DNA of 64,000 nucleotides. It comes from Acidobacteriota bacterium (GTDB lineage: Bacteria; Acidobacteriota; Vicinamibacteria; Vicinamibacterales; UBA2999). The translations under genes were made by a program, and so were the position numbers. Positions 50,590 to 64,000 of the stretch are shown in pieces. Position 1 is the first letter of the stretch. Each line of letters opens with the position of its first letter. Below the pieces are notes generated by a model, which had not been told where the DNA came from, searched no databases, and saw only the letters and a program-made list of their open reading frames with translations. The stretch lies in the NCBI GenBank assembly GCA_947482665.1, contig CANKJK010000003.1, positions 1-64,000 of the forward strand. The letters run 5' to 3'.

Positions 50590-51879
50590 TCAGGAGACCG
50601 GCGAGCGGTGGCCGCGGAACAGGTTCCGGTCGAGGCGCACGCCAACACGAAGTCCCTGACCCGTCATGCGCTCGAACGATGTCGACTGGACTGGCTGGAG
50701 CGTGCCGCGACGGCTGTGCCAGGCGTACTCGAGGTAGATGGGTGCGCCGCCGACCAGTACATCTGCTCGCGCCACGCCGGTCGTGCTCACAAGATCCTGG
50801 CCCGATCCCGCGGACGATGCGGACCGCGCCACGCCGCCGGTGAGCCGGATCGTGCGACTGACTTCCCACGTGCCCGAACCGCGCCACGTCGTCAGGGGCA
50901 CCGCACGGGTGGTTCCCTGCGGATACGACAACTGGCGCTGATAGCCGAGGTCCAGCGCCGTGTTGGCGCTGGCCCGGTATTCCATGTCCGCTCCGCCCTC
51001 AATCGCCGTGCTGCCCGACTGACCTGGGCGTGCGGCCATCCGGCCCGGAGCCGCCGTCAGACGCAATGCCGTCCGGCGCCAGGCTGCGGGGTGATATTCC
51101 AGACGCACCTCGGCCAGGGTCGTGGCCGCTGGCGCGCCAGCCGACCCATGATTCGTACCGCGGAGGCGTCCGCCGCCGACCCAGAGTTGCGCAGTGCGCG
51201 TGAGACGCCGGCCGACGCGCAGGCTGATGCGGTCATCCACCGCGGGCACACCGCACGAGGCGGCCGCAAGCCGGTCGTGCCGGTACGCGGCCTGCAGGGT
51301 CGTGCGCCGGGAGAGGCTGCGCTCCGCGGTGACCGCTGCGCCGAGCGTCATGTTGGACTGGGCCGCGGTCACGCTGCCGGGACCAGCCAGCAGGTTATTG
51401 TCGGCGGGCAGTTGACTGGTGCTGAAGGTGCCCAGCACGCACTGCGGTGAGTAGGCCATGCGCTCAGACGCCGTGAGGCTGAAGCGCGGCGTCACCGGCA
51501 TCCGCGCGCCCATCTCAATCCACTGATTGTCGACACCGAACCCGGTGCGGCCAGTCTCGAACTGCACACCGCCCGCGACCGCATATTCGAGCCGGCGCGT
51601 GGTCCGCGCGAATTGCAGTTCCGCCCGTGCCCCTTCCCGGCGCTGCGCCACGTCGACGGGATTGCCCTCCCGAGATTCGCGTTCGGCGGATTCGAACAAC
51701 CGCACAGACAGAAGACCGGTCGGCATCTTTCGCGATGACACACCAGCTGGCGCGTCTGGCACCTTGAACAGCCCGGCATAGGCGCGCCCGGTGCTGGCCT
51801 CCTGCGCACGCGCGGCGTCTGCCATCAGGGCACAGCACGTCACCAGGACGGCCACCACCGTCAGTCGTGCGCGACTCAC
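50590..51879 (-). CDS. Predicted outer-membrane beta-barrel protein of the exopolysaccharide locus
   Basis: A 429-residue protein with a signal peptide (RLTVVAVLVTCCALMADAAR). It then runs in alternating amphipathic strands with frequent aromatic girdle residues (LEYAVAGGVQFETGRTGFGV, TAQLWVGGGRLRGTNHGS, NTALDLGYQRQLSYPQG) and ends RVGVRLDRNLFRGHRSPVS. This is the pattern of an outer-membrane beta-barrel of the kind often found last in Wza/Wzx/Wzy-type clusters. Its GTG overlaps the stop of the polysaccharide export gene (GTGA). Possible roles: secretion porin or surface attachment of the glycan. Confidence 0.75.
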   Translation of the reverse strand: MSRARLTVVAVLVTCCALMADAARAQEASTGRAYAGLFKVPDAPAGVSSRKMPTGLLSVRLFESAERESREGNPVDVAQRREGARAELQFARTTRRLEYAVAGGVQFETGRTGFGVDNQWIEMGARMPVTPRFSLTASERMAYSPQCVLGTFSTSQLPADNNLLAGPGSVTAAQSNMTLGAAVTAERSLSRRTTLQAAYRHDRLAAASCGVPAVDDRISLRVGRRLTRTAQLWVGGGRLRGTNHGSAGAPAATTLAEVRLEYHPAAWRRTALRLTAAPGRMAARPGQSGSTAIEGGADMEYRASANTALDLGYQRQLSYPQGTTRAVPLTTWRGSGTWEVSRTIRLTGGVARSASSAGSGQDLVSTTGVARADVLVGGAPIYLEYAWHSRRGTLQPVQSTSFERMTGQGLRVGVRLDRNLFRGHRSPVS

Positions 51880-52463
51880 CGCACCAGCACCGTGTCGCCA
51901 GGCAGCAGCACGATGTTCTCGCGCAAGTCCTGCACCTTCGCGGCGCGCTTGTAGTTGAAGCGGAAGGTCACTGGCCCGTCGGCACCCTCTCTGATGATGC
52001 TGATGTGCTCGCGATCGGCGTACTCGGTCAACCCGCCGGACTGCGCAATCAGCTGCAGCACCGTCGTGGATCCACCAAGCACATAAGCCCCGGGGCGCAC
52101 CACCTCGCCGGTGATGTAGACCTTGCGGCTGTTGATCTGCTTCACGGTGACCGTCACGCGCGGGTCGTCCAGCAGCGCGGCCGCGCGACTCCGGATGCGC
52201 TCGCTCAATTGGGCGGGCGTCACGCCAAGCGCGGAGATGTCCTCCAGCAGGGGTAGCGAGATGAAGCCGTCGGGCCGGACAGCCACCTGGGCGGAGAGTT
52301 CCTTCTCACCCCAGTAGCTGACATCCAGCACGTCATCGGCGCCGATCAGATAGTGCTGTGGCGCCGGTTCGGCTTGCCGCCATTCCGGTGTCGCCGCCGC
52401 CGCGGGCAGGGTGATCGCAAGCACCGCGAGCACTGCCAGGAGACATGACTGACTGATTTTCAT
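51876..52463 (-). CDS. Polysaccharide export protein (Wza/EpsA-like)
   Basis: A 195-residue periplasmic/outer-membrane export protein with a signal peptide (SCLLAVLAVLAITLPAAAA). The poly_export domain begins YLIGADDVLDVSYWGEKELS, and a SLBB domain follows (SRKVYITGEVVRPGAYVLGG, then LTEYADREHISIIREG). Such proteins form the outer-membrane channel for capsule or exopolysaccharide. It is shorter than E. coli Wza (~380) and has no lipobox, like other short EpsA/GumB-type forms. GGAGG lies 5 nt before the ATG, which overlaps the flippase stop. Confidence 0.93.
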   Translation of the reverse strand: MKISQSCLLAVLAVLAITLPAAAATPEWRQAEPAPQHYLIGADDVLDVSYWGEKELSAQVAVRPDGFISLPLLEDISALGVTPAQLSERIRSRAAALLDDPRVTVTVKQINSRKVYITGEVVRPGAYVLGGSTTVLQLIAQSGGLTEYADREHISIIREGADGPVTFRFNYKRAAKVQDLRENIVLLPGDTVLVR

Positions 52464-53959
52464 AAGACCTCCACTGCCAGCACGGGCGCGGGCGCTCGGC
52501 GCCGCTGCCATGCGTGGGATACGAACGCGACGTCGTCGCTGCCAATGCCACCGGCCACAGAGACGGCCGCCACCGCCGCCACCGCCGCCAGCAGCGCCGG
52601 CAGGACGCCGGACACCGGGCGCGTCAGCGCCGCGGCCACCGCCAGTGCGGCCACCCCGGCCAGACCGGCCGTAGTGCGGAGCAGGCGCGGCTCGCACCAC
52701 GAGCGCCAGGTCAGACCCGCCAGCACCGCCGTGACCGTCACTTCAGTGATGAGCGTCGCCCAGGCCGCGCCGGCACCGCCGCCGGGCACGCCAAGAGCCA
52801 CCCCACCGCCACCGATCAGCCACGCGTTGAGTGGCACCGAGGCCACCACGCCGGCCAGGGAGACGGCCGCCATCGTCCACGCCCGTCCCTCCTGCAACAG
52901 CGCAATCGCACAGACCGTGGAGACATACGCGAGGGCAAAGGTGGGGGCGAGCGCACGCAGCATCGGCACCGCGCCGGCAAAGCCTGGCCCGAAGCAGAGG
53001 GCGAGCACCTGCGGCGCCGCGACCGCGCAGGCCAGCGCCACCGGCACCGCGCCCAGCAGCGACAGCCGGAGCGTGCCCGTCACCAGCCCACGCATGTCGT
53101 CGCCGGAGCTGGCCGCGGCTCGGGCCGCCGAGGGCACCAGCACCCACGTGAGGATCGGCATGCCCAGCAGCGCGAGCGAGGCCACGTTGGAGGCGGCGCC
53201 GTAGAGCCCCACTTCGACAGGCCCACTCACCGCACCGAGCCAGCCCGTGCCGACGCGTGCGTAGAACGTGTGCGCGAGCGCATTGACGAAGAGCGGCACG
53301 CTGGCGAGAACCATGCCTGACGCCAGCCGCAAGTCCGGCCGCAGCAGCAGGCCGTGCTGGCGCCGGGCCCGCCGGGTCAGCCAGGCGAACCGCACGGCCT
53401 CCACCGCGAGACCGACCAGCGCGACGGCCAGCCCCGTACGCCACGCCGAGAGCGCCAGGACGGTGATGCCGGCCCAGCCCACTTTCATGCCGATGTTGGT
53501 GCGGGCCAGCCAGCTCACGTCACCAGCGGCGTGCTCGAATGCCGCGTAGGTGTTGTTGAGCACGACGAGCACCTGCGAGACGCCGAGCCCGACGAAGACC
53601 GCGACGACGGTGCGCGACGCACCGGTCCGGTGTAGAATCGCCACGACGGCCGCGACTGCCAGCGCACCGAGCGCAACCCGCAGGACCGTCAGGCCGCCAA
53701 GAGACCGCAGCGTCCGGGCCGGATCCGTGGCCGCCTCCCGTCTGAGCTGCGAGTCGATGCCGAAGGTCAGCAGCACAAGCAGCAGGTCCGCGTAGCTCTC
53801 GGCCAGACGCAGCTCGCCGAAGTCTCCCGGGCCGAGCACCCGCGGCACCAGCAGGCGGACGCCCAGGGCGACGGCCGTGGTCACGGCGAGGGATGCGCCG
53901 AGACGCAGCGCGTGATCCAGCGCCACCACGCTCTCGGAGTGGCCCGACCTGGCGCTCAC
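52460..53959 (-). CDS. wzx: Wzx-type polysaccharide flippase
   Basis: A 499-residue polytopic protein of the MOP/oligosaccharide flippase family. It has about 14 helices, starting [20 protein letters not shown], with the amphipathic [20 protein letters not shown] after helix 1, and [20 protein letters not shown] in the middle. It would flip the undecaprenyl-linked repeat unit across the inner membrane for periplasmic polymerisation. The GTG start overlaps the acyltransferase stop by 4 nt, and it is embedded between other exopolysaccharide genes. Confidence 0.88.
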
Positions 53960-54582
53960 GAGGCCTCCCGCACGATGAAGCGCCGAGGGTCGAGCGTGCC
54001 CATCGGGCGCGCAGGCACACCGCCGACGATGGTGAACGGCGGCACGTCGTGCGTGACGACGGACCCGACGCCGACGATGGCGCCCCGGCCGATCCGGACG
54101 CCCTTGAGCACGGACGCCTTGGCGCCGATCCAGACGTCGTCCTCGATCACCACGGGCCGTGCACCCTGCCGCGACTCGCGATCAAGCGGGTCATGGAAGT
54201 CCGTGTCCACGATCATCGCGTAGGGTCCGATACGAACCCGATCGCCAATCGTCACAGAGCGGTCCGCGTTGATGGACGTGCCGTAATTCACGCGCACGCC
54301 ACGGCCCACTCGCAGGATGGCCCCGGGGCCGGTCACCAGCTCGACAGGTACCGGCAGGCTCCGCAGGAGGACGTGACCACCGATCTCGATCCGTCCGTCA
54401 TTGACGATCCGTGGCGTGCCGAGCGTGCGCGGGTGCGCACCGATGACATCGACGCGCCGCAGGCGCAGGCGCGCGGTCACCAACTCGCCCGCGTACCGCA
54501 GACCGCGTTTGGTCACGAGACGCCAGCCAAGACCACGATCCCGGCGCAGCTTCGCCAGGATGGTGCGAAGGGTTGTGGGCAC
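53956..54582 (-). CDS. Left-handed beta-helix acyltransferase (WcaF/colanic-acid type)
   Basis: A 208-residue hexapeptide-repeat acyltransferase. Repeats run from [20 protein letters not shown] to [20 protein letters not shown] and [20 protein letters not shown], with the catalytic histidine region [20 protein letters not shown]. It probably O-acetylates a sugar of the repeat unit in the cytoplasm before flipping. GTG 54582 is chosen because it follows the upstream stop by one base and has GAGGGG at good distance. An ATG at 54630 would overlap the upstream gene by 47 nt. Confidence 0.88.
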
Positions 54583-54583
54583 G

Positions 54584-55573
54584 TTAGCTCGCCCCACGGC
54601 CGCTGACGACCACCGGAACAGTTCTGCCAATCAGGGACACATCGGTGCCGAGCGACCACTGATCGACGTACTGCAGGTCGAGCATCATCCACTCGTCGAA
54701 CCCGATGGAGTTACGGCCCTGCACCTGCCAGAGGCACGTCAGCCCTGGCCGTACCGAGAGGCGCCGGCGCTGCCACGGCTGGTACTGCGCCACTTCGCGC
54801 GGCACGGGCGGCCGGGGACCGACGATCGACATGTGGCCGAGGAGGATGTTGAAGAGCTGCGGAAGCTCGTCGATGCTGTAGGCCCGGATGAAGCGCCCGA
54901 CCCGCGTGACCCGCGGATCGCACTGCATCTTGAACACCGGTCCGGTCTGCTCGTTCTTCGCGGCCAGCGTCTCGAGCAGGCGCTCGGCGTCGACCACCAT
55001 CGACCGGAACTTGAACATCTCGAAGTACCGGCCCCGCAGACCTACGCGGACCTGCTTGAAGAAGACGGGACCGCGCGAGGTGAGTTTGATGGCCGCCGCC
55101 GTGGCCAGCAGCAGTGGCGACAGCGCGGCGAGGGCAACCAGACTGAGCCCAATGTCAGCGGCGCGCTTCACGGCGTCCTCGACGGGCCTGGATATCGTCA
55201 GCCGGTAGTGGAGGTAGCCATCCTGCGTCGCCGTGGCATGTACGGGCAGCGCCCGGCCGAGGCGGAAGACGTGCGCGGGCACCGCGAACGGAATCCCGAG
55301 CTGTTCGCAGACCTGGACAGCGGACTGGAGCCGGTCGTGGTGGCTCTGAATGTCGGTGGCGAAGTACACCTCGTCAACCGGATTCATCGTGAGGAACGCC
55401 GCGAGCTGGTCGACCGGGCCCAGCTGAGGCACGTCGAGTCCGGGCGCCGGCGTCTCGTCGCCCACGCTGAACGCGCCGACCACCCGGGCGCGGCCGGCCA
55501 GGTCACGCAGGGTCTCGCGGGCCAACGCGCCGCGGCCCACCAGAACGATTTCGGGAAGTGAGGTCTTCAACAC
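54584..55573 (-). CDS. Short polyprenyl-phosphate sugar-1-phosphate transferase (initiating glycosyltransferase)
   Basis: A 329-residue bacterial sugar transferase. The C-terminal catalytic domain is complete: [56 protein letters not shown] and [10 protein letters not shown]. It starts glycan assembly by loading a sugar phosphate on undecaprenyl phosphate at the inner membrane. The N terminus has only a Rossmann-like CoA-binding-type region ([20 protein letters not shown]), without the four-helix membrane bundle of WbaP-type enzymes. GTG 55573 has AGGAG 8 nt upstream and overlaps the wecG-like stop. Confidence 0.88.
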
Positions 55574-56397
55574 GTGGAGGACTCCTGAACAGTCGCGGTT
55601 GTGGTCGGGCGCGGTACGGGGCGTGATGCGATGCGGGCATTCCAGAGTGCTCTGGCGAAGATCGGGAGCGCCTGCATGTCGCGGACGAGATAGCGGTAGG
55701 CCATACGCCTGGGCTCCTGCGCCAACCGATAGAGCCACTCAAGACCGGCGCGGGACATCCAGCGGGGTGCCCGGCGCACGACGCCTCCCGCGAAATCAAG
55801 CGAGGCACCGAGGCCGAAGGCCACCGCGGGTGCTATCGCATCGGCGTGGCGCTCCATCCACTGCTCCTGCCGTGGGCAGGAGAGCGCCAGCACGACGATC
55901 TCCGCGCCGGACTCGCGGATGGCCCGCACGACCCGGGACTCCTCGGCGGGCGTCTCATCGTCGGCCCGCCAGAACGAGGTGTCCTGTCCGACAATCCGCA
56001 ACGCCGGGTGCGACTGCTCGAAGCGCTCTCGCGCGATAGCAAGAGTGTCGGGCGTCGAGCCGAAGAAGAAGACGCCGCGGTTGGCGCGCGCGGCGTAGGC
56101 CATGAGCGGGTCGAGGAGATCAGAGCCGGAGACTTTCTCAGGCACCGGGGCCCGGAGCAGCCGGCTCATCCAGACGAGCGGCTGGCCATCCGCCAACGAG
56201 AGCGCCGCGCGTGCATGCGCACGCCGCAGCGCTTCGTGACGAGTGGCCAATACCAGGTGGTCCACATTCGGCGTGACGACGTATCCACCTCGCTCACGCC
56301 GGATGAGTGCGTCCACCGCCTCGATCGTCTGCGCCTGTGTCAGGCGATCGAGGCCGAGGTCACCAATCCATGTGCGTCCTGATGTTGACTCGTGCAT
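55567..56397 (-). CDS. WecG/TagA/CpsF-family glycosyltransferase (GT26)
   Basis: A 276-residue GT26 enzyme: GGYVVTPNVDHLVLATRHEA with the conserved TPN, LSLADGQPLVWMSRLL (the ADGxG-like motif), SGSDLLDPLMAYA, and VVLALSCPRQEQWMERHADA. It adds a second sugar, typically N-acetylmannosaminuronic acid or related, to the lipid-linked primer. It is the first gene of the minus-strand exopolysaccharide operon. Its ATG lies at predicted +3 of a sigma-54 promoter (56410-56425), with no Shine-Dalgarno inside that short leader. Confidence 0.92.
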   Translation of the reverse strand: MHESTSGRTWIGDLGLDRLTQAQTIEAVDALIRRERGGYVVTPNVDHLVLATRHEALRRAHARAALSLADGQPLVWMSRLLRAPVPEKVSGSDLLDPLMAYAARANRGVFFFGSTPDTLAIARERFEQSHPALRIVGQDTSFWRADDETPAEESRVVRAIRESGAEIVVLALSCPRQEQWMERHADAIAPAVAFGLGASLDFAGGVVRRAPRWMSRAGLEWLYRLAQEPRRMAYRYLVRDMQALPIFARALWNARIASRPVPRPTTTATVQESSTC

Positions 56398-56409
56398 GGA
56401 GAGCCTTAG

Positions 56410-56425
56410 TGCAAGGCACGGGCCA
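56410..56425 (-). promoter_or_regulatory. Sigma-54 promoter of the minus-strand exopolysaccharide operon
   Basis: On the minus strand: TGGCCCGTGCCTTGCA, matching the consensus TGGCACG-N4-TTGCW at every position but one, with exact GG-N10-GC spacing. The predicted start is 56399, two bases before the wecG-like ATG at 56397. Confidence 0.8.
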
Positions 56426-56486
56426 CACTGAAAACAGCAGGTCTTGCCTGACAAACGGCCATTCACCGGATGCGCGCTCGCGCTTC

Positions 56487-56517
56487 TGAGACGCCCCCGC
56501 TGTTTCATTCCGAGACA
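56487..56517. promoter_or_regulatory. Shared enhancer-binding-protein site (UAS) of the divergent exopolysaccharide operons
   Basis: Three half-sites: GAGAC (56488-56492), GTTTC (56502-56506) and GAGAC (56512-56516), embedded in TGAGAC-N9-GTTTCA and TGTTTC-N5-GAGACA. Its centre is about 103 bp upstream of the minus-strand start and about 112 bp upstream of the plus-strand start, the usual distance for a sigma-54 activator. The same array occurs in reverse at 62995-63022 before the GH44 gene. Confidence 0.65.
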
Positions 56518-56587
56518 GAGCGAACAGTCGCCTTCGGCACTCACGCCATTTCAGGCCTGTTTGGCGATCACCCGCGCCATTGGAAGG

Positions 56588-56603
56588 CGGCACGAATGCT
56601 GCT
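56588..56603 (+). promoter_or_regulatory. Sigma-54 promoter of the plus-strand exopolysaccharide operon
   Basis: CGGCACGAATGCTGCT: GGCACG at -24 and TGCT at -12 with exact GG-N10-GC spacing. The predicted start is 56614, two bases before ATG 56616. Confidence 0.72.
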
Positions 56604-56615
56604 CTGTCTGTCTGC

Positions 56616-56780
56616 ATGCAGAAGGTCATTCTCGCGTCGGTCCTCATGGCCACCTTCCTGATCCCGGCCTCGTTCACCACATCCGGGGCGGTGCGCTATG
56701 GGTCCTTCCTCATTCGCATGTGCACGTTCACGGCCGCCTACGTGGCCCTCCTGCTCTTTGTCTATCCGCGTCTGTTCTGA
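56616..56780 (+). CDS. Small membrane protein at the head of the exopolysaccharide operon
   Basis: A 54-residue protein with two hydrophobic segments (VILASVLMATFLIPASFTTS and TFTAAYVALLLFVYPRLF) joined by a short polar loop (GAVRYGSFLIRMC). I do not recognise it. Support comes from position: the ATG is at predicted +3 of a sigma-54 promoter, the next gene starts 10 nt after its stop, and the composition is coherent for a membrane hairpin. There is no Shine-Dalgarno. ATG 56646 would give 44 residues. Confidence 0.6.
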   Translation: MQKVILASVLMATFLIPASFTTSGAVRYGSFLIRMCTFTAAYVALLLFVYPRLF

Positions 56781-56789
56781 GTCATCCCC

Positions 56790-57182
56790 ATGCACACCAC
56801 ACGCAAAGCGCTGATCGTTGACGATGCCCCGGAGTTCCGGCTCCTGCTCGGGTCCCTGTTCCGGGAGCTCGGACTGGAGTCGGTGACGGTCCGCGACGGA
56901 GACACGGCGCTCGCGATGGCCCGCGAGGAACGGCCCGCGATCATCTGTGTCGACCTCATGCTCCCAACCCTCTCTGGCCTTGAGGTCTGCACCGCGCTCC
57001 GCCAGCGGCCCGAAACAGCCGATGTGCCGATCGTCATGGTCTCGGCGCGCCGCTTCCCGCAGGACCGCGCGGCGGCCAGCCAGGCAGGGGCTGACGCCTA
57101 CGTGACCAAGCCAGTCGACCGCACGGACTTCTCCAACCAGGTGCGTTCCCTGCTCTGGCAGCGGCAGCAGGCAGAGGCGTAA
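56790..57182 (+). CDS. Stand-alone response-regulator receiver domain protein
   Basis: A 130-residue CheY-like protein. The acidic pocket is D11/D12 (ALIVDDAPEF), the phospho-acceptor is D55 (ICVDLMLPT), with S85 (MVSARR) and K107 (YVTKPVD). There is no output domain. Single receivers in polysaccharide clusters usually act as phospho-controlled protein-binding switches. No histidine kinase is in the window. It is 3 nt upstream of the Wzz-like gene, so it is made with the synthesis machinery. Confidence 0.9.
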   Translation: MHTTRKALIVDDAPEFRLLLGSLFRELGLESVTVRDGDTALAMAREERPAIICVDLMLPTLSGLEVCTALRQRPETADVPIVMVSARRFPQDRAAASQAGADAYVTKPVDRTDFSNQVRSLLWQRQQAEA

Positions 57183-57185
57183 GCC

Positions 57186-58628
57186 ATGTCCGACCAGGTC
57201 ACCCTTCTTCCGCTGGGACATCCTGCCGTCTGGGCGCGCGGGCTGCGTCTGGCGACGCAGGCCGTCCGTGCGCGCTGGGTGTCGGTGGCTCTGCTCACGG
57301 CGATCTTCGCGGGTGCGGGCTTCGGCGCCGGCCTGGTGCTCCCCCGTACCTATGAGAGCCGGACGCGCCTGCTCGTGCAGCGCAACGTGGTGATGCCGGC
57401 ACTGGCGTCCCCGACGCGGTCGGTGCCGTCCAACTCGGACGCGCCGACGCAGGCCGCCACGGAGTTCGTGCTGAACCGTCCGGCGCTGGAAGGCATTCTC
57501 GAACGCGCCGACCTGATGGCCCGCTGGGCTGGGGAGCGGCCACCCGCACTGCGCCTCAAGGATCAGTTGCTCGAGCGTCTCAGCGGTCCAATCTCGCCGG
57601 AAGACCGCGCGGATGCCCTCGTCGAGGTGCTGTCGAACCGGTTGACCGTCAGCGTGAACAACGACGTCATCACCATCAACGCCACGTGGTGGACCCCCGG
57701 CACGGCGCTCGACATCGTCAACGCCGCCGCGGAGGCCTTCCTGGAAGCCCGCCGCAAGGTGGACGTGCAGGCGATCGACGACACGGCGGCGCTCCTGGGA
57801 CGGTCCGTGGAGGAGCACCGCGCGCGGCTCGAGGCGCAGATGGCGGTGGTCACCGCACGCGTCTCGGCCCCGCGCCGCGTGCATTCGGAATCCGCGCCGC
57901 CCGTGTCACGGGTCGCCGGGCCGGCAAAGAAGGCGGACTCGCGCCTGGAGGATCTGCGCCAGCGTGTGACGAGTGCCCGGCAGGCCGTCGTCGACACGGA
58001 GCGACGCTACAAGGATTCCGTGCGCGACGCCGAAGTCCGTCTGGCGACGGTCCGGGCAGGGCGCACCGAGCGTCATCCTGACGTCGTCGGGGCGCAGCGG
58101 ACCTTCGACCGCCTCCGGGAAGAACCCGAGGCCCTCCGCGCGGCCCGGATGGCTGAGACGGCCACCGTGAGCGAGTGGCTGGCCAGTGGCGGCTCCCTCG
58201 ATGCCCCCGCGGCGCCCGCGACATCGACTGCCGCGGAGGCCGTGATCCCCGCCGTGCTTCGCTCGCCCGCGATGGAGGCCGAGGCGCGCGTGCCTGCGGC
58301 GTCTGTCGAGGACGGCTACTCGCGCGCACTGCTGGATAACCTGGTCGCCACCTATCAGGACCTGCTGACACGGCAGGCCAATGCCCAGGTGGAACTCGCC
58401 ACGGCGAAGGCGGCGTTCCGGTATCGCTACTCGGTGATGTATCCGGCCCGGCTCGCCAAGAAGGCCTCGGGGCCGAATCGTCCCGTCATCCTCATGGGTG
58501 CGCTGATGGCCGGCCTGCTCGCCGGTCTGTTGCGCGCCCTCATGGCCGAGCTCAAGGCGAAGCAGTTGCTCTCGCCGGCCGCCCTCATGGCGCACCTGTC
58601 GGAAGGCGCCCCGCAGGGGCAGGCGTGA
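57186..58628 (+). CDS. Wzz/GumC-like polysaccharide chain-length determinant
   Basis: A 480-residue polysaccharide co-polymerase. The first transmembrane helix is near residues 31-52 (WVSVALLTAIFAGAGFGAGL), followed by the Wzz region (LVLPRTYESRTRLLVQRNVV, then NRLTVSVNNDVITINATWWT). A long coiled-coil segment runs about residues 195-330, and a second transmembrane helix is at ~437-458 (PVILMGALMAGLLAGLLRAL). It lacks a C-terminal BY-kinase domain. It would set glycan length with the Wzy-like protein, whose GTG overlaps its stop by 4 nt. Confidence 0.88.
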   Translation: MSDQVTLLPLGHPAVWARGLRLATQAVRARWVSVALLTAIFAGAGFGAGLVLPRTYESRTRLLVQRNVVMPALASPTRSVPSNSDAPTQAATEFVLNRPALEGILERADLMARWAGERPPALRLKDQLLERLSGPISPEDRADALVEVLSNRLTVSVNNDVITINATWWTPGTALDIVNAAAEAFLEARRKVDVQAIDDTAALLGRSVEEHRARLEAQMAVVTARVSAPRRVHSESAPPVSRVAGPAKKADSRLEDLRQRVTSARQAVVDTERRYKDSVRDAEVRLATVRAGRTERHPDVVGAQRTFDRLREEPEALRAARMAETATVSEWLASGGSLDAPAAPATSTAAEAVIPAVLRSPAMEAEARVPAASVEDGYSRALLDNLVATYQDLLTRQANAQVELATAKAAFRYRYSVMYPARLAKKASGPNRPVILMGALMAGLLAGLLRALMAELKAKQLLSPAALMAHLSEGAPQGQA

Positions 58629-60109
58629 GCACGCTCTCGGCACGGGTCGCACCCGCGCGCATTCTGGTCTGGCCTGCTATCGGGTTGTCCTTCGTCCTCG
58701 TACTGGCCGGCGCGGGCATCATCGCTCCGGCCGCGCCGCTCCTGGCGGTGCTCGCGCTGGCGGCCGTGCTCGCCGCGCCGATGCGGGTCACGGCGCTGGC
58801 CGTGCTGGCTGTGAGCCTCATCGCCGACAACCCGGGCGAGCGACCGATGTCGGGTCTGTGGCGATCGCCGGTGGCAGGCATCGGGGATCTGCTGTATCTC
58901 AATCTGCACGCCCACACCCACATCGAGGCCCTCCGGTTCTCGCTGCTGGAACTGCTCGTGAGCCTGCTGGTCGTCATCGTCCTGGTCCGCAAGATGTCGA
59001 AGGACCCGCTCGACGATCCGGACGGTCAGGGTGTCCTGCCCAATCCGCTGAAGATGGCGTTCGTCGTCTTCTTCCTCGCCATCGTTGGACTCGAAGTCCT
59101 GGGCCTCGCCCGTGGCGGCGACTTCCGCAATTCGCTCTGGCAGCTGCGGCAGCTCTTCTGGCTACCCGCGCTGGGGCTGCTCTTCGGCCATGCGTTCCGG
59201 TCCTCGCGGGCGCGCACCGCCCTCCTGCGCACGCTGATGGTGGCGGCCGCCGCACGGGCCTCCCTCGGCATCTACTTCTACTTCGCCCGGGTGCGCCCGG
59301 GCGCGCTGCAGGTGGACTACGTCACCACGCACTCCGACTCGATTCTGGCCGTGGTCGCGATGCTGATTGCCGTGGCGGCCTTCGTGGAGCGCCGGACTCT
59401 GGGCCACCTGCTTCTGAACCTTGGCCTCCAGCCGCTGCTCATCCTCGGCCTCGTGGTCAACAACCGGCGCATTGCCCTGGTAGCCCTCGCGGCCGGCATC
59501 GCCACGCTGCTCCTGATCGGGCCCGCGGCCCTCCGGAGAGGGCTTGCGCGCAGCCTCATCGTGATCCTGCCCCTCGCCGGCCTCTACGTCGCGGCCGGCT
59601 GGAACTCCCACGCGGCCGTCTTCGGACCGGTGCACACGCTGCGGTCGATCTCCTCGAGCGAGGACGACTCCACCAAGACACGCGACATCGAGAACTTCAA
59701 CCTGATCCAGACGCTCAAGGAGCACCCGCTGCTCGGGTCCGGCTTCGGCCACGAGTACCACGAGCAGGTGCAGGGTGATCGCGTCGATCAGTTCTTCGCC
59801 CAGTATCGCTACATCGCCCACAACAGCGTGCTCTGGCTGCTGTCGCTCTCGGGCTGGATCGGCTTCAGCCTCGTCTGGACGGTCTTCCTCGTGATGGCGT
59901 TCGTCGCACGCCTCGCCTACAGCCGGGCGCGTGCGCTGCCGGATCGGGTGACGGCATTCGGTGCCCTCGCCGCGGTGCTCTGCTTCGTGATTCAGGCCTG
60001 GGGGGACATGGGTCTCCAGAGCTGGATGGGCACGTTGACACTCACGAGCCTGACGGGTGCCGCCGGGGCGCTCTTCACGGCACAGAACCAGGAAGAGACC
60101 CTCGCATGA
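58625..60109 (+). CDS. O-antigen polymerase/ligase family protein (Wzy-like)
   Basis: A 494-residue inner-membrane protein with about a dozen helices (IGLSFVLVLAGAGIIAPAAP and onward). A large periplasmic loop follows (SISSSEDDSTKTRDIENFNL, then HPLLGSGFGHEYHEQVQGD) and ends in the conserved YIAHNSVLWLLSLSGWIGFS of the Wzy_C/O-antigen ligase domain. It probably polymerises flipped repeat units. Assignment to polymerase over ligase rests on the adjacent Wzz- and Wzx-like genes. GTGA and ATGA overlaps link it to both neighbours. Confidence 0.87.
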   Translation: MSTLSARVAPARILVWPAIGLSFVLVLAGAGIIAPAAPLLAVLALAAVLAAPMRVTALAVLAVSLIADNPGERPMSGLWRSPVAGIGDLLYLNLHAHTHIEALRFSLLELLVSLLVVIVLVRKMSKDPLDDPDGQGVLPNPLKMAFVVFFLAIVGLEVLGLARGGDFRNSLWQLRQLFWLPALGLLFGHAFRSSRARTALLRTLMVAAAARASLGIYFYFARVRPGALQVDYVTTHSDSILAVVAMLIAVAAFVERRTLGHLLLNLGLQPLLILGLVVNNRRIALVALAAGIATLLLIGPAALRRGLARSLIVILPLAGLYVAAGWNSHAAVFGPVHTLRSISSSEDDSTKTRDIENFNLIQTLKEHPLLGSGFGHEYHEQVQGDRVDQFFAQYRYIAHNSVLWLLSLSGWIGFSLVWTVFLVMAFVARLAYSRARALPDRVTAFGALAAVLCFVIQAWGDMGLQSWMGTLTLTSLTGAAGALFTAQNQEETLA

Positions 60110-61347
60110 GTACTGTTCTGTCCAGTCTGCTGATACTCGCTGCCGTGCCCGTCGTGTTGGCGGGCACGTACCTGCTGGCGCTGACCCTGCTCTGGCGACG
60201 GCCGCGCGCCGCGGCCGCGCCGCCCTCAATCGCGGAGTCTGCCTCTGCGTCCGCGTCGGCGCTGTCGTGCTGCGTGCTCGTGCCGGCTCACAACGAGGCC
60301 TCCGGCATCGCCGCCACGCTGGCCAGCCTGATGCAGGTCGACTATCCCCGCGACCGGTTCCGAGTGGTCGTCGTCGCTGACAACTGCACGGACGACACGG
60401 CGGCGATCGCCGCGCAATGCGGCGCGGCGGTGCTGACGAGGACCGACACCTCCCGGCGCGGGAAGGGCTGGGCCCTGCGGTTCGCCATCGACCACCTGCT
60501 TGCCGAGGCCGCGGCTTCCTGGGATGTCCTGCTGGTGGTCGACGCCGACAGCCGCGTGTCTCCGAATTTGCTGACGGCCGTCACGGCCCGCGTGGCCGCA
60601 GGCGCACGCGCGGTCCAGGCCACCTATCTGCCGGCACCCTCCGCGCCTGGTCCGACCTCGGTCATCACGGACGTGGCGTTCACGGCGTTTCACTGCATCC
60701 GCTCGGCGGGCCGTGAGCGGCTCGGCCTCTCCACAGGCCTGCGCGGCAATGGCATGGCCTTCACCAGGGACCTGCTGCGCCAGGTACCGCACGGCGCGTT
60801 CTCACGCACCGAGGATCTGGAGTTCGGCGTGCTGCTGGGGCTGCGCGGCGTGCGGGTGGCGTACGCGGACGATGCGGTCGTCCAGGGTGAGATGCCGACG
60901 CGCCCGGATGTCGTCGCCGGACAGCGTGAGCGGTGGATTGGCGGGCGCGCGGAGATGGCCCGCCGCTTCGTGCCGGGACTCGCCACGGCCGCGTGGCGCA
61001 CGCGCAGCCTCATGCTGGCGGACCTGGCGTGCGACCTGCTGATGCCGCCGCTCTCGGCCGTGGTGCTCGCCGCGTTCGCCGGGCTCGGCGTCAGCGCGAT
61101 GGCGGCGCTCTTGTTCGAGACGGGGGCGGTGGCCATCTGGCTTTGGGCCACGGCCTGTGCGGCCCTGGCCATCCACGTCGCCGTTGCGGCACACGTGGCC
61201 GGACGGACAGGTGATCTGGTGCGCGCGGCGTGGGCCATCCCCCGCTACGCATGGCTCAAGACAGCGATCACGACACGAGCGGCGTGGCGCTCCGGCGAGG
61301 CGAATACCTCGTGGATTCGAACGGCTCGCGAAGGAGAACTTCAGTGA
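60106..61347 (+). CDS. Membrane-associated glycosyltransferase family 2
   Basis: A 413-residue GT2. An N-terminal helix (LLILAAVPVVLAGTYLLALT) precedes the GT-A domain: CVLVPAHNEASGIAATLASL, VVVADNCTDDTAAIA, LLVVDADSRVSP (the DxD metal site), TEDLEFGVLLGLRGVRVAYA, and QRERW, the processive-type Q-x-x-R-W motif. C-terminal helices follow. The motif set resembles cellulose/hyaluronan-type and N-glycan-type membrane GT2s, so it may add sugars to lipid carrier in the membrane. ATG overlaps the Wzy-like stop by 4 nt. Confidence 0.9.
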   Translation: MSTVLSSLLILAAVPVVLAGTYLLALTLLWRRPRAAAAPPSIAESASASASALSCCVLVPAHNEASGIAATLASLMQVDYPRDRFRVVVVADNCTDDTAAIAAQCGAAVLTRTDTSRRGKGWALRFAIDHLLAEAAASWDVLLVVDADSRVSPNLLTAVTARVAAGARAVQATYLPAPSAPGPTSVITDVAFTAFHCIRSAGRERLGLSTGLRGNGMAFTRDLLRQVPHGAFSRTEDLEFGVLLGLRGVRVAYADDAVVQGEMPTRPDVVAGQRERWIGGRAEMARRFVPGLATAAWRTRSLMLADLACDLLMPPLSAVVLAAFAGLGVSAMAALLFETGAVAIWLWATACAALAIHVAVAAHVAGRTGDLVRAAWAIPRYAWLKTAITTRAAWRSGEANTSWIRTAREGELQ

Positions 61348-62957
61348 CGACAGCGCACGGTCAGTATCCGGAGATCAGCGTGGTCATCGCCACGCGCGAG
61401 CGCACGGCCTCGGTCGTGCGCCTGCTCACGCAGTTGAACGACCAGGCGCTGGATGCGTCTGCATTCGAGGTGATCGTCGTCGACGACGGCTCGCCCGAGC
61501 CCGCCGGGCCGGCGCTGGATCGGCTTCAGCTCCGCTACGCGATGTCGCATCACCGGATTGACTGGAGTGGACAGGCCGCCGCCCGGCATCACGGCGCGTT
61601 GACCGCGCGCGGTGACGTGCTGGTGTTCATGGACGACGACATGCAGGTGCCCTCCGACTTCCTGCCCGCGCACCTGGCGCGTCATCAGGCCAGCCCCCAC
61701 ACGGTGGTGCTGGGCCGCATTGCCTCCGACCCTGGTCTGGCGGAGATGCCGCCCTTCGAACGGTTCAACGCCCGCCAGCTCGAACGGTGGCGCGCGGGCG
61801 TGCTGGCGGGCGACATCGCCCCGAGGGGCATGCATCTGTGCACGGGTAACGTGTCGATGCGCCGGGAGGACTACCACGCCGTCGGTGGCTTCAACCTCTC
61901 GCTGCGGCGGTCGGAGGATCGGGAACTGGGGATCCGCCTCGAGCGCCACGGCTGCACGATCGTCTACGGGGACGAAGCCCGCACCGTGCACTGCTCGGAC
62001 CACGACGATGCCATCTGGCTCAAGCGCGCCTATCTCTACGGGCGGTTTGACCGTACGATCGCGGCCCTGCACCCGGAGGTGGAGGATGCGCACCCATGGC
62101 GCTTCTGGGGACTGATTCACCCTGCCTCGCGCCCGGTCGTGGGTCTCTCGCTGCTGTCGCCAGCTCTCGGCCGCGCGGCCGCACGCACGGCGTTTCATGC
62201 CGCGCAGTTCACGGACCGGCTCCGCCTGACGCGCGTGGCCGTGCTGCTGGCCGCCGTCGCCTATGCGCTCGAGTACTTCCGCGGTCTGCGTGAGGAGTGC
62301 GGCTCCTTTGGCGCCTTCTGGCGGGACCGGCCGGCCTATCGGAGGAGCCTGTTCGCGGCCGTGGGCGCCATGCGCCACGCCATTCGCGCGGACCACGAAG
62401 AGGTACGCGCGCACCGTCTCAAGTATCAGGACGAGCTGGTGCCGGCCTCGCGGCTCCCGGTCGACCTCGTGCGCCGGGTCGGCTTTCAGATGCTGGCGTG
62501 GTATCGCCTGATGCGCTGCCTCGACACATGCGGCGTGCCCGTCCTCCCGATGGTCATCTCGCGGTTGATTCGGCACCTCTATGGGGCAGACATCCACTGG
62601 CGCACGCAGATTGAACCCGGCGTCTCGGTGGTGCACGGCCAGGGTCTCGTGCTCGGTCGCCACGCCGTGGTCGGCACCGGCTGCATCCTGTTCCAGAACG
62701 TCACGCTCGGAGAGTGTTTCGACGCGGTAACCGGCAAGGTCGGCACGCCGCGACTGGGTGCCCACGTCCACGTGGCGCCGGGCGCCACGCTGCTCGGCCC
62801 CATCGACGTTGGTGCGCGTTCCAAGATTGGTCCCGGCGCGGTGCTGATGCAGAGCGTGCCTGAGTTCAGCCTCGTGTCCTCACCGGTGGCGACCATCACC
62901 TCGCGCCGCTCACCTGCGGCGCTGGCACTCTACGCCTTTGCCAAACGGGCGATCTAG
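61344..62957 (+). CDS. Fusion of GT2 glycosyltransferase with serine-acetyltransferase-like beta-helix domain
   Basis: A 537-residue protein. Residues ~8-260 form a GT2 domain (ISVVIATRERTASVVRLLTQ, VIVVDDGSPEP, LVFMDDDMQVPSDFLPAHLA, CTGNVSMRREDYHAVGGFNL). A helical linker follows. Residues ~413-520 form a CysE-type left-handed beta helix: YGADIHWRTQIEPGVSVVHG, VGTGCILFQNVTLGE, GTPRLGAHVHVAPGATLLGP, ARSKIGPGAVLMQSVPEFSL. One protein may thus add a sugar and acetylate it, or acetylate a serine-like acceptor. The GTG overlaps the upstream stop by 4 nt; it is the last gene of the operon. Confidence 0.9.
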   Translation: MTTAHGQYPEISVVIATRERTASVVRLLTQLNDQALDASAFEVIVVDDGSPEPAGPALDRLQLRYAMSHHRIDWSGQAAARHHGALTARGDVLVFMDDDMQVPSDFLPAHLARHQASPHTVVLGRIASDPGLAEMPPFERFNARQLERWRAGVLAGDIAPRGMHLCTGNVSMRREDYHAVGGFNLSLRRSEDRELGIRLERHGCTIVYGDEARTVHCSDHDDAIWLKRAYLYGRFDRTIAALHPEVEDAHPWRFWGLIHPASRPVVGLSLLSPALGRAAARTAFHAAQFTDRLRLTRVAVLLAAVAYALEYFRGLREECGSFGAFWRDRPAYRRSLFAAVGAMRHAIRADHEEVRAHRLKYQDELVPASRLPVDLVRRVGFQMLAWYRLMRCLDTCGVPVLPMVISRLIRHLYGADIHWRTQIEPGVSVVHGQGLVLGRHAVVGTGCILFQNVTLGECFDAVTGKVGTPRLGAHVHVAPGATLLGPIDVGARSKIGPGAVLMQSVPEFSLVSSPVATITSRRSPAALALYAFAKRAI

Positions 62958-62987
62958 CCAGCGCCATCCTTGCCTCTGACCGCCTGT

Positions 62988-63023
62988 CCGCGGTGTCTCG
63001 GTCTGAGACACCGCGGTGTCTCA
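62988..63023. promoter_or_regulatory. Palindromic UAS upstream of the GH44 gene
   Basis: CCGCGGTGTCTC occurs twice (62988-62999, 63011-63022) around an inverted copy GAGACACCGCGG (63005-63016). The right part, TGAGACACCGCGGTGTCTCA (63004-63023), is a perfect 20-bp palindrome. Half-sites read GTCTC, GAGAC, GTCTC. Its centre is about 103 bp before the predicted sigma-54 start. As RNA it could also form two alternative hairpins at the end of the exopolysaccharide operon. Confidence 0.7.
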
Positions 63024-63083
63024 GGCGCCGCGGCCGACGTGGCCCTTCTCGAAGGAACGCGCCACGGTGGCCGACAGTGAGCA

Positions 63084-63099
63084 TGGCCCGCGTCTTGCT
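63084..63099 (+). promoter_or_regulatory. Sigma-54 promoter of the GH44 gene
   Basis: TGGCCCGCGTCTTGCT: one mismatch to TGGCACG-N4-TTGCW, exact GG-N10-GC spacing. The predicted start is 63110, two bases before ATG 63112. It is nearly identical to the wecG-side promoter (TGGCCCG-N4-TTGC). Confidence 0.82.
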
Positions 63100-63111
63100 C
63101 TGACAACCTCT

Positions 63112-64000
63112 ATGCACAGAGAGTTATCGCGCCGGTCGCTGATGCGAGCAGCGTCACCCTCCCGCAAGGGACGCCGAAACAGCAGCATTGTTGCCATAGC
63201 CCTGCTGAGTGCGGGCTGCCTCGCCACCGGCGCACGCGCACAGGACCCGGTGGTCGAGGTCACCGTGGATGTCACAGCCGGGCGGCATGCCATCAGCCCG
63301 CTCATCTACGGAGTCTCGAAGACGAGCGCCGAGAACCTCGCGGCTCTCAATGCCCCGATGACACGGCTCGGAGGGAACTATACGTCCCGCTACAACTGGC
63401 AGGCCAACGCGTACAACCGGGCCGTCGACTGGTTCTTCGAGAGCGTGCCGGAGACCGGCGAGACGCCCGGGGCGAGCGCGGACGCGTTCATCACCGATGC
63501 GCGGAGCGCCGGCGCGCAGCCACTGGTCACGGTGCCGATGCTGGACTGGGTGGCCAGGCTCAGTGATCGGCGCTCACGCCTCGCCAGTTTCTCCGTGGCC
63601 CGGTACGGTGCACAGACCTCCACGGATGCCCAGTGGTTTCCAGACGCGGGCAATGGCGTGCTGAAGGGCGGCGCGCACGTGCAGGGCAACGACCCGGCCG
63701 ACGCGAACACGCGGGCGGGCGTCGGGTTTCAACAGGCCTGGATCCGCCACCTCGTCTCCACCTGGCGCGGTGCCGCCGATGGCGGCGTCCGCTACTACGT
63801 GGCGGATAACGAACCAAGCCTCTGGCACTCCACGCACCGCGACGTGCACCCTGCCGGCGCGACGATGGACGAAGTGGCCTCCAGGCTCATCGAGTATGCC
63901 GAGGGGATCAAGGCGGTCGACCCGGGCGGCAAGGTCGTGGGTCCCGAGGAGTGGGGATGGCTTGGCTTCCTCTACAGCGGGCACGATCAGCAGTTTGCCG
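63112..64000 (+). CDS. Glycoside hydrolase family 44 enzyme, 3' partial
   Basis: At least 296 residues, running off the window. A basic N terminus and signal peptide (NSSIVAIALLSAGCLATGAR, cleavage near A-R-A-Q) lead into a GH44 catalytic domain: HAISPLIYGVSKTSAENLAA, MTRLGGNYTSRYNWQANAYN, and YYVADNEPSLWHSTHRDVHP, which contains the catalytic acid NEP. GH44 enzymes are endo-beta-1,4-glucanases/xyloglucanases. Placed after the exopolysaccharide operon with its own sigma-54 promoter and the same UAS, it may trim or remodel the exported glycan. ATG 63112 is at predicted +3; ATG 63142 is an alternative that keeps the whole signal peptide and leaves a 32-nt leader. Confidence 0.88.
   Translation, partial: MHRELSRRSLMRAASPSRKGRRNSSIVAIALLSAGCLATGARAQDPVVEVTVDVTAGRHAISPLIYGVSKTSAENLAALNAPMTRLGGNYTSRYNWQANAYNRAVDWFFESVPETGETPGASADAFITDARSAGAQPLVTVPMLDWVARLSDRRSRLASFSVARYGAQTSTDAQWFPDAGNGVLKGGAHVQGNDPADANTRAGVGFQQAWIRHLVSTWRGAADGGVRYYVADNEPSLWHSTHRDVHPAGATMDEVASRLIEYAEGIKAVDPGGKVVGPEEWGWLGFLYSGHDQQFA

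Follow-up and report, generated by a model that had tools for sequence, protein, structure and literature searches.

Three sequences in one exopolysaccharide (eps) locus of an Acidobacteriota bacterium resemble sigma-54 promoters, each at the same short distance before an ATG; the question that this raises is whether they are promoters and, if they are, whether their transcripts carry leaders. In bacteria, leaderless genes have so far been associated with sigma-70-like -10 boxes, and ordinary leaders with sigma-54 genes. We consider it likely that all three are real sigma-54 promoters of a single eps regulon, and that they belong to an order-wide class in which the sigma-54 start lies at the start codon or a few nucleotides before it. 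The whole stretch of DNA analysed (64,000 nt) is referred to as the window. Its gene content suggests a member of Acidobacteriota, perhaps of Vicinamibacteria.

The eps locus and its three sigma-54 elements

The -24/-12 elements and their ATGs lie where the earlier note had placed them, with 13 nt from the -12 GC to the ATG in 3/3 (Table 1), and have GG and GC dinucleotides 10 bp apart in a TGGCAC-N5-TTGCW-like context. The pattern YGGCNCG-N4-YTGC-N13-ATG has three matches in the 64-kb window, exactly the three eps sites, as against a mean of 0.02 in dinucleotide shuffles, none of 100 of which reached three; the view that this geometry is hard to explain by chance held. The genes had been described as unrelated, but all belong to one eps locus, two being divergent first genes and the third epsB-like. 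Homologues of the Myxococcus xanthus eps set (EpsA/B/C/D/U/V/W/Y/Z and Wzx/Wzy) are found together here, with matches that are all significant and mostly below the NCBIfam equivalog cut-offs, i.e. the proteins are homologous and not the same equivalogs. This homology indicates that the three promoters would serve one pathway. A single reading frame (61230-62957) fuses an EpsD-like glycosyltransferase with an EpsC-like serine-acetyltransferase-type domain, which are separate proteins in the NCBIfam eps models. Nothing unusual was seen in RNA structure at the predicted 5' ends of the three eps genes.

Table 1. Positions of the promoter elements, start codons, candidate activator sites and genes
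Feature	Position	Strand	Remarks
Sigma-54 -24/-12 element, epsA-side operon	56410-56425	-	TGGCCCGTGCCTTGCA, TGGCCCG-N4-TTGCA
ATG of epsA-like gene	56395-56397	-	13 nt past GC; C precedes ATG
Sigma-54 element, epsW-side operon	56588-56603	+	CGGCACGAATGCTGCT, CGGCACG-N4-CTGCT
ATG of 54-aa protein gene, epsW-side operon	56616	+	13 nt past GC; C precedes ATG
Sigma-54 element, GH44 gene	63084-63099	+	TGGCCCGCGTCTTGCT, TGGCCCG-N4-TTGCT
ATG of EpsB-like GH44 gene	63112	+	13 nt past GC; T precedes ATG
Putative activator site common to both divergent promoters	56487-56517		core palindrome TGTTTCATTCCGAGACA at 56501-56517
Putative activator site before GH44 promoter	62994-63023		core TGTCTCGGTCTGAGACA at 62994-63010
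Minus-strand operon remainder: EpsZ-like transferase, hexapeptide acetyltransferase, Wzx flippase, EpsY-like export protein, 429-aa protein of unknown function	50590-55738	-	
EpsA-like WecG/TagA/CpsF glycosyltransferase	55567-56397	-	
54-aa hydrophobic protein, first gene of epsW-side operon	56616-56780	+	without family match
EpsW-like single-domain response regulator	56790-57182	+	
EpsV-like chain-length protein, Wzy polymerase, EpsU-like, EpsD-EpsC-like proteins	57186-62957	+	significant, below NCBIfam equivalog cut-offs
EpsB-like GH44 glycoside hydrolase, 574 aa	63112-64000, on past window to C3:64833	+	
comEC element-to-ATG match	C7:96365-96394		whole-genome pattern scan, N13 class
505-aa gene, signal-peptide-like N-terminus	C6:6626-6655		whole-genome pattern scan, N13 class

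Upstream of the elements there is a palindrome, TGTYTC-N5-GAGACA, each copy of which sits inside a similar block of 30-31 bp. The 3.53-Mb genome has just two copies of it without mismatch, both in eps intergenic regions, and the reversed control pattern had no match in the genome. The distances from palindrome centre to the three -24 GG elements are 85, 80 and 83 bp, a placement as expected of an enhancer-binding-protein site, and we regard both copies as putative sites of this kind. A genome without rpoN would have spoken against the promoters; rpoN is present, together with about 20 sigma-54 activators. One of these, a receiver-AAA-Fis protein (C3:70397-71779), is encoded 7 kb beyond the window, next to a PAS histidine kinase of 963 aa; the pair occupies C3:67508-71779, about 3-7 kb downstream of the GH44 gene.

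The nearest named relatives of EpsA (L157-L159) come from Deltaproteobacteria/Anaeromyxobacter, with 44-47% identity as against 33-40% for any found in the bacterium's own order, which suggests that the eps locus was transferred between phyla. The promoter was also looked for before EpsA in other genomes: none of the 11 relatives in the order with an EpsA homologue (0/11) has the arrangement there, and the named Deltaproteobacteria and Anaeromyxobacter relatives have no such promoter before EpsA. In those named relatives a sigma-54 element precedes the start of a nifH-like gene by 54-55 nt, as with ordinary leaders. The case for the EPS promoters rests on their geometry, the common palindrome and the order-wide class.

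Spacing of element and start codon across the order

When the pattern GGCNCG-N4-YTGC-N{1,30}-ATG was run on the whole genome, the N13 class had seven members, five of them with A or T after the GC, i.e. the three eps sites, comEC and the 505-aa gene. In a first sample of 40 genomes of the family and order, this genome included, the pattern TGGCNCG-N4-TTGCW followed by ATG gave 16 matches at 13 nt (two being this genome's own eps sites), compared with about 2.7 per bin elsewhere. A second sample consisted of genomes of the order absent from the first, and among the matches listed there were 14 at 13 nt against 2.6 per bin (Poisson P ~7e-7). Among the matches listed for a control family of the same phylum five fell at 13 nt, in an even spread with no peak. 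The peak does not extend to the phylum as a whole, where there was only a weak, broad excess. A relaxed-matrix scan of 0.92 Mb of this genome, taken in stretches, gave no clear 13-nt peak, which means either that few genes here belong to the class or that the matrix is not strict enough.

The genes opened by ATGs at 12-15 nt encode pseudopilins, PilA-like proteins, YraN, ComM and MlaE, and also 23S-IVP-like four-helix proteins, a PDDEXK_3 protein, mini PEP-CTERM proteins and a small conserved unknown. These families recur under near-leaderless sigma-54 elements in different genera, and in many gene pairs identity upstream of the promoter has fallen to just 20-40%, yet element and distance are kept. 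RecG was rejected as a member, as the sigma-54 element falls inside its coding sequence, going by the conserved LKGVGPRKA stretch.

Several members deserve mention in their own right. comEC, comM, yraN and pseudopilins recur under the arrangement (C7:96395 (-) and C7:86.9 kb (-) in this genome; L080, L284, L286, L287, L297 and L299), a hint that competence and pilus genes of the order form a sigma-54 regulon. Near-leaderless sigma-54 starts are also predicted for small proteins (61-71 aa) made up of little beyond a signal peptide and PEP-CTERM-like sorting signal (L086, L292, L294, L296). The 23S-rRNA-intervening-sequence-type four-helix proteins and the PDDEXK_3 (GxxExxY) protein, families whose function is unclear, start 13 nt past sigma-54 elements (L070, L281, L283, L285, L289).

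Orthologues of yraN were picked by protein similarity alone, not by motif, and scored with a hand-made matrix built from the known consensus (threshold: element score of at least 17.5). The set comprised this genome's locus and the 30 best-scoring relatives, and is therefore biased towards relatives of the query. Within the order 27 of the 31 loci, this genome's included, had a sigma-54 element followed after 13-17 nt by an in-frame start codon; among random start codons 0.9% have such an element at that distance, and as each locus offers a few candidate starts, chance alone would give a few percent. In the control family there was an element at none of 29 loci, despite more candidate starts being allowed. 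This genome's comEC (TIGR00361) has its element at exactly 13 nt.

These results bear on whether all of the matches could be chance occurrences in GC-rich DNA, with no sigma-54 promoters here. At spacings other than 13 nt most genome-wide pattern matches do look like background and the relaxed matrix yields many matches, but the shuffle expectation, the unique palindrome, the second-sample peak, the control family without a peak and the yraN contrast (27/31 vs 0/29) all argue against chance, which the yraN test refutes for the class and which we consider very improbable for the locus. The proposal that near-leaderless starts occur at sigma-54 promoters is instead supported by the presence of rpoN, the shared palindrome, the order-wide spacing and the yraN orthologues chosen without motif selection.

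Predicted starts of transcription and translation

The base before the ATG was C in 39 of 42 predicted near-leaderless sigma-54 genes, a set chosen by the motif, compared with 45 of 126 (36%) Shine-Dalgarno-led starts of this genome (P ~4e-11); it was also C at 15 of 22 TANNNT-led starts, and C, C and T at the three eps genes. At the longer yraN spacings a pyrimidine preceded the start codon in 25 of 27. The usual transcription initiator is a pyrimidine-purine step, and the C before the ATG therefore makes the A of the AUG the likely +1. The earlier note had claimed a strictly fixed ATG at +3, a position that was the outcome of textbook numbering. That claim did not survive, since spacings range over 12-17 nt, with the motif samples peaking at 13 and yraN at 15, and since the C before the ATG favours +1 at the A. 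Nor did ATGCA(C/G) survive as an initiation-region motif, being present in only 1 of the 42 genes.

Textbook numbering could still apply, in which case the promoters would be real, transcription would start slightly upstream, and leaders of 2-5 nt would leave the AUG near but not at the 5' end. A spacing of 13 nt does put the ATG at +3 when the C is counted as -12, and the yraN spacings of 15-17 would mean longer leaders. We nevertheless consider such leaders unlikely, because the frequency of C before the ATG agrees with initiation at the A of the AUG by a pyrimidine-purine step and because the longer-spaced yraN starts mostly keep their preceding pyrimidine.

The supposed lack of Shine-Dalgarno sequences was confirmed at the second and third sites and failed at the first, where AAGG occurs six nucleotides before the ATG, inside the promoter; this sequence is SD-like, but it lies upstream of any canonical sigma-54 start point. 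Across the class an SD-like tetramer precedes the ATG in only 4 of the 42 near-leaderless genes. If translation began instead at downstream in-frame codons, real sigma-54 promoters would be followed by ordinary leaders, and some matches do have a better SD-led start further down, e.g. the cytochrome genes in L094 and L097, with GGAGG before a later ATG. However, the prepilin genes have no other start codon before the cleavage motif, and SD-like sequences were found at only 4 of the 31 candidate yraN starts, and we judge downstream starts to be very unlikely as a general explanation. The box of sigma-70-type leaderless genes was also sought, and TANNNT 6-7 nt before the start codon is absent at all three eps ATGs. 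The genome as a whole has Shine-Dalgarno sequences at many genes, plus an excess of TANNNT 12 nt before ATG; given these sigma-70-type leaderless starts, its ribosomes plausibly accept leaderless mRNAs.

Judged by promoter distance and the C before the ATG, the mRNAs of the class look leaderless or nearly leaderless. In the mechanism that we propose, the histidine kinase/NtrC-type activator pair at C3:67508-71779 would bind the TGTYTC-N5-GAGACA sites, the bound activator would open the RNA polymerase-sigma-54 complex, transcription would begin at the A of the AUG, about 14 nt past the GC, and the ribosome would load on the 5'-terminal AUG without a Shine-Dalgarno sequence. A broader form of this reading, about evenly balanced in our judgement between right and wrong, is that sigma-54 governs, throughout the order, a regulon of genuinely leaderless genes (exopolysaccharide, type IV pilins, pseudopilins, ComEC, ComM and YraN) with +1 at the A of the AUG, such that one sequence sets both activator-controlled opening and start-codon choice, and the translation route is shared and distinct from that of Shine-Dalgarno genes. 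If this is true, surface and DNA-uptake genes would depend on both an ATP-driven activator and leaderless translation, in these mostly uncultured genomes a rule would be gained for finding sigma-54 targets and the right start codons directly from sequence, and whether leaderless translation sets a regulon apart would become testable.

Relation to known systems

Searches of the open-access literature turned up nothing that described leaderless genes driven by sigma-54 as a class, which is weak evidence of absence as most subscription papers lie outside it. The eps region of M. xanthus encodes the NtrC-like EpsI/Nla24 and its kinase, and Nla24 is important there for making EPS (PMC7484181). The present locus resembles that one in its homologous gene set and adjoining kinase and NtrC-type regulator, the comparison being one of gene content; no leaderless starts are reported in the parts of that source consulted. 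The RpoN-dependent pepA of Aquincola tertiaricarbonis likewise has a sigma-54 promoter (TGGCAC/CTGCTT) at a surface-related gene, although the portion of the account consulted describes no leaderless arrangement for it (PMC9850573).

Leaderless mRNAs with primary 5' ends at the AUG have been mapped experimentally in Sinorhizobium meliloti and Bradyrhizobium japonicum, in the same studies as RpoN promoters (PMC3616915, PMC4842269). There, the leaderless mRNAs of B. japonicum are preceded by an extended -10 box, and the RpoN motifs are tied to nodule-only starts.

In sigma-70-type leaderless genes TANNNT stands about 12 nt ahead of the start codon (Zheng et al. 2011, PMC3160421); such genes were found in 3/3 Acidobacteria genomes at a mean of 13%, a figure with which the TANNNT excess in the present genome agrees. 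The eps genes resemble them in the short, fixed spacing between promoter and start codon and in having no Shine-Dalgarno sequence. They differ in that the candidate promoter is of the -24/-12 type, which needs an ATP-using activator and falls outside the scope of that survey, by its own statement a search for Pribnow-box-like promoters only.
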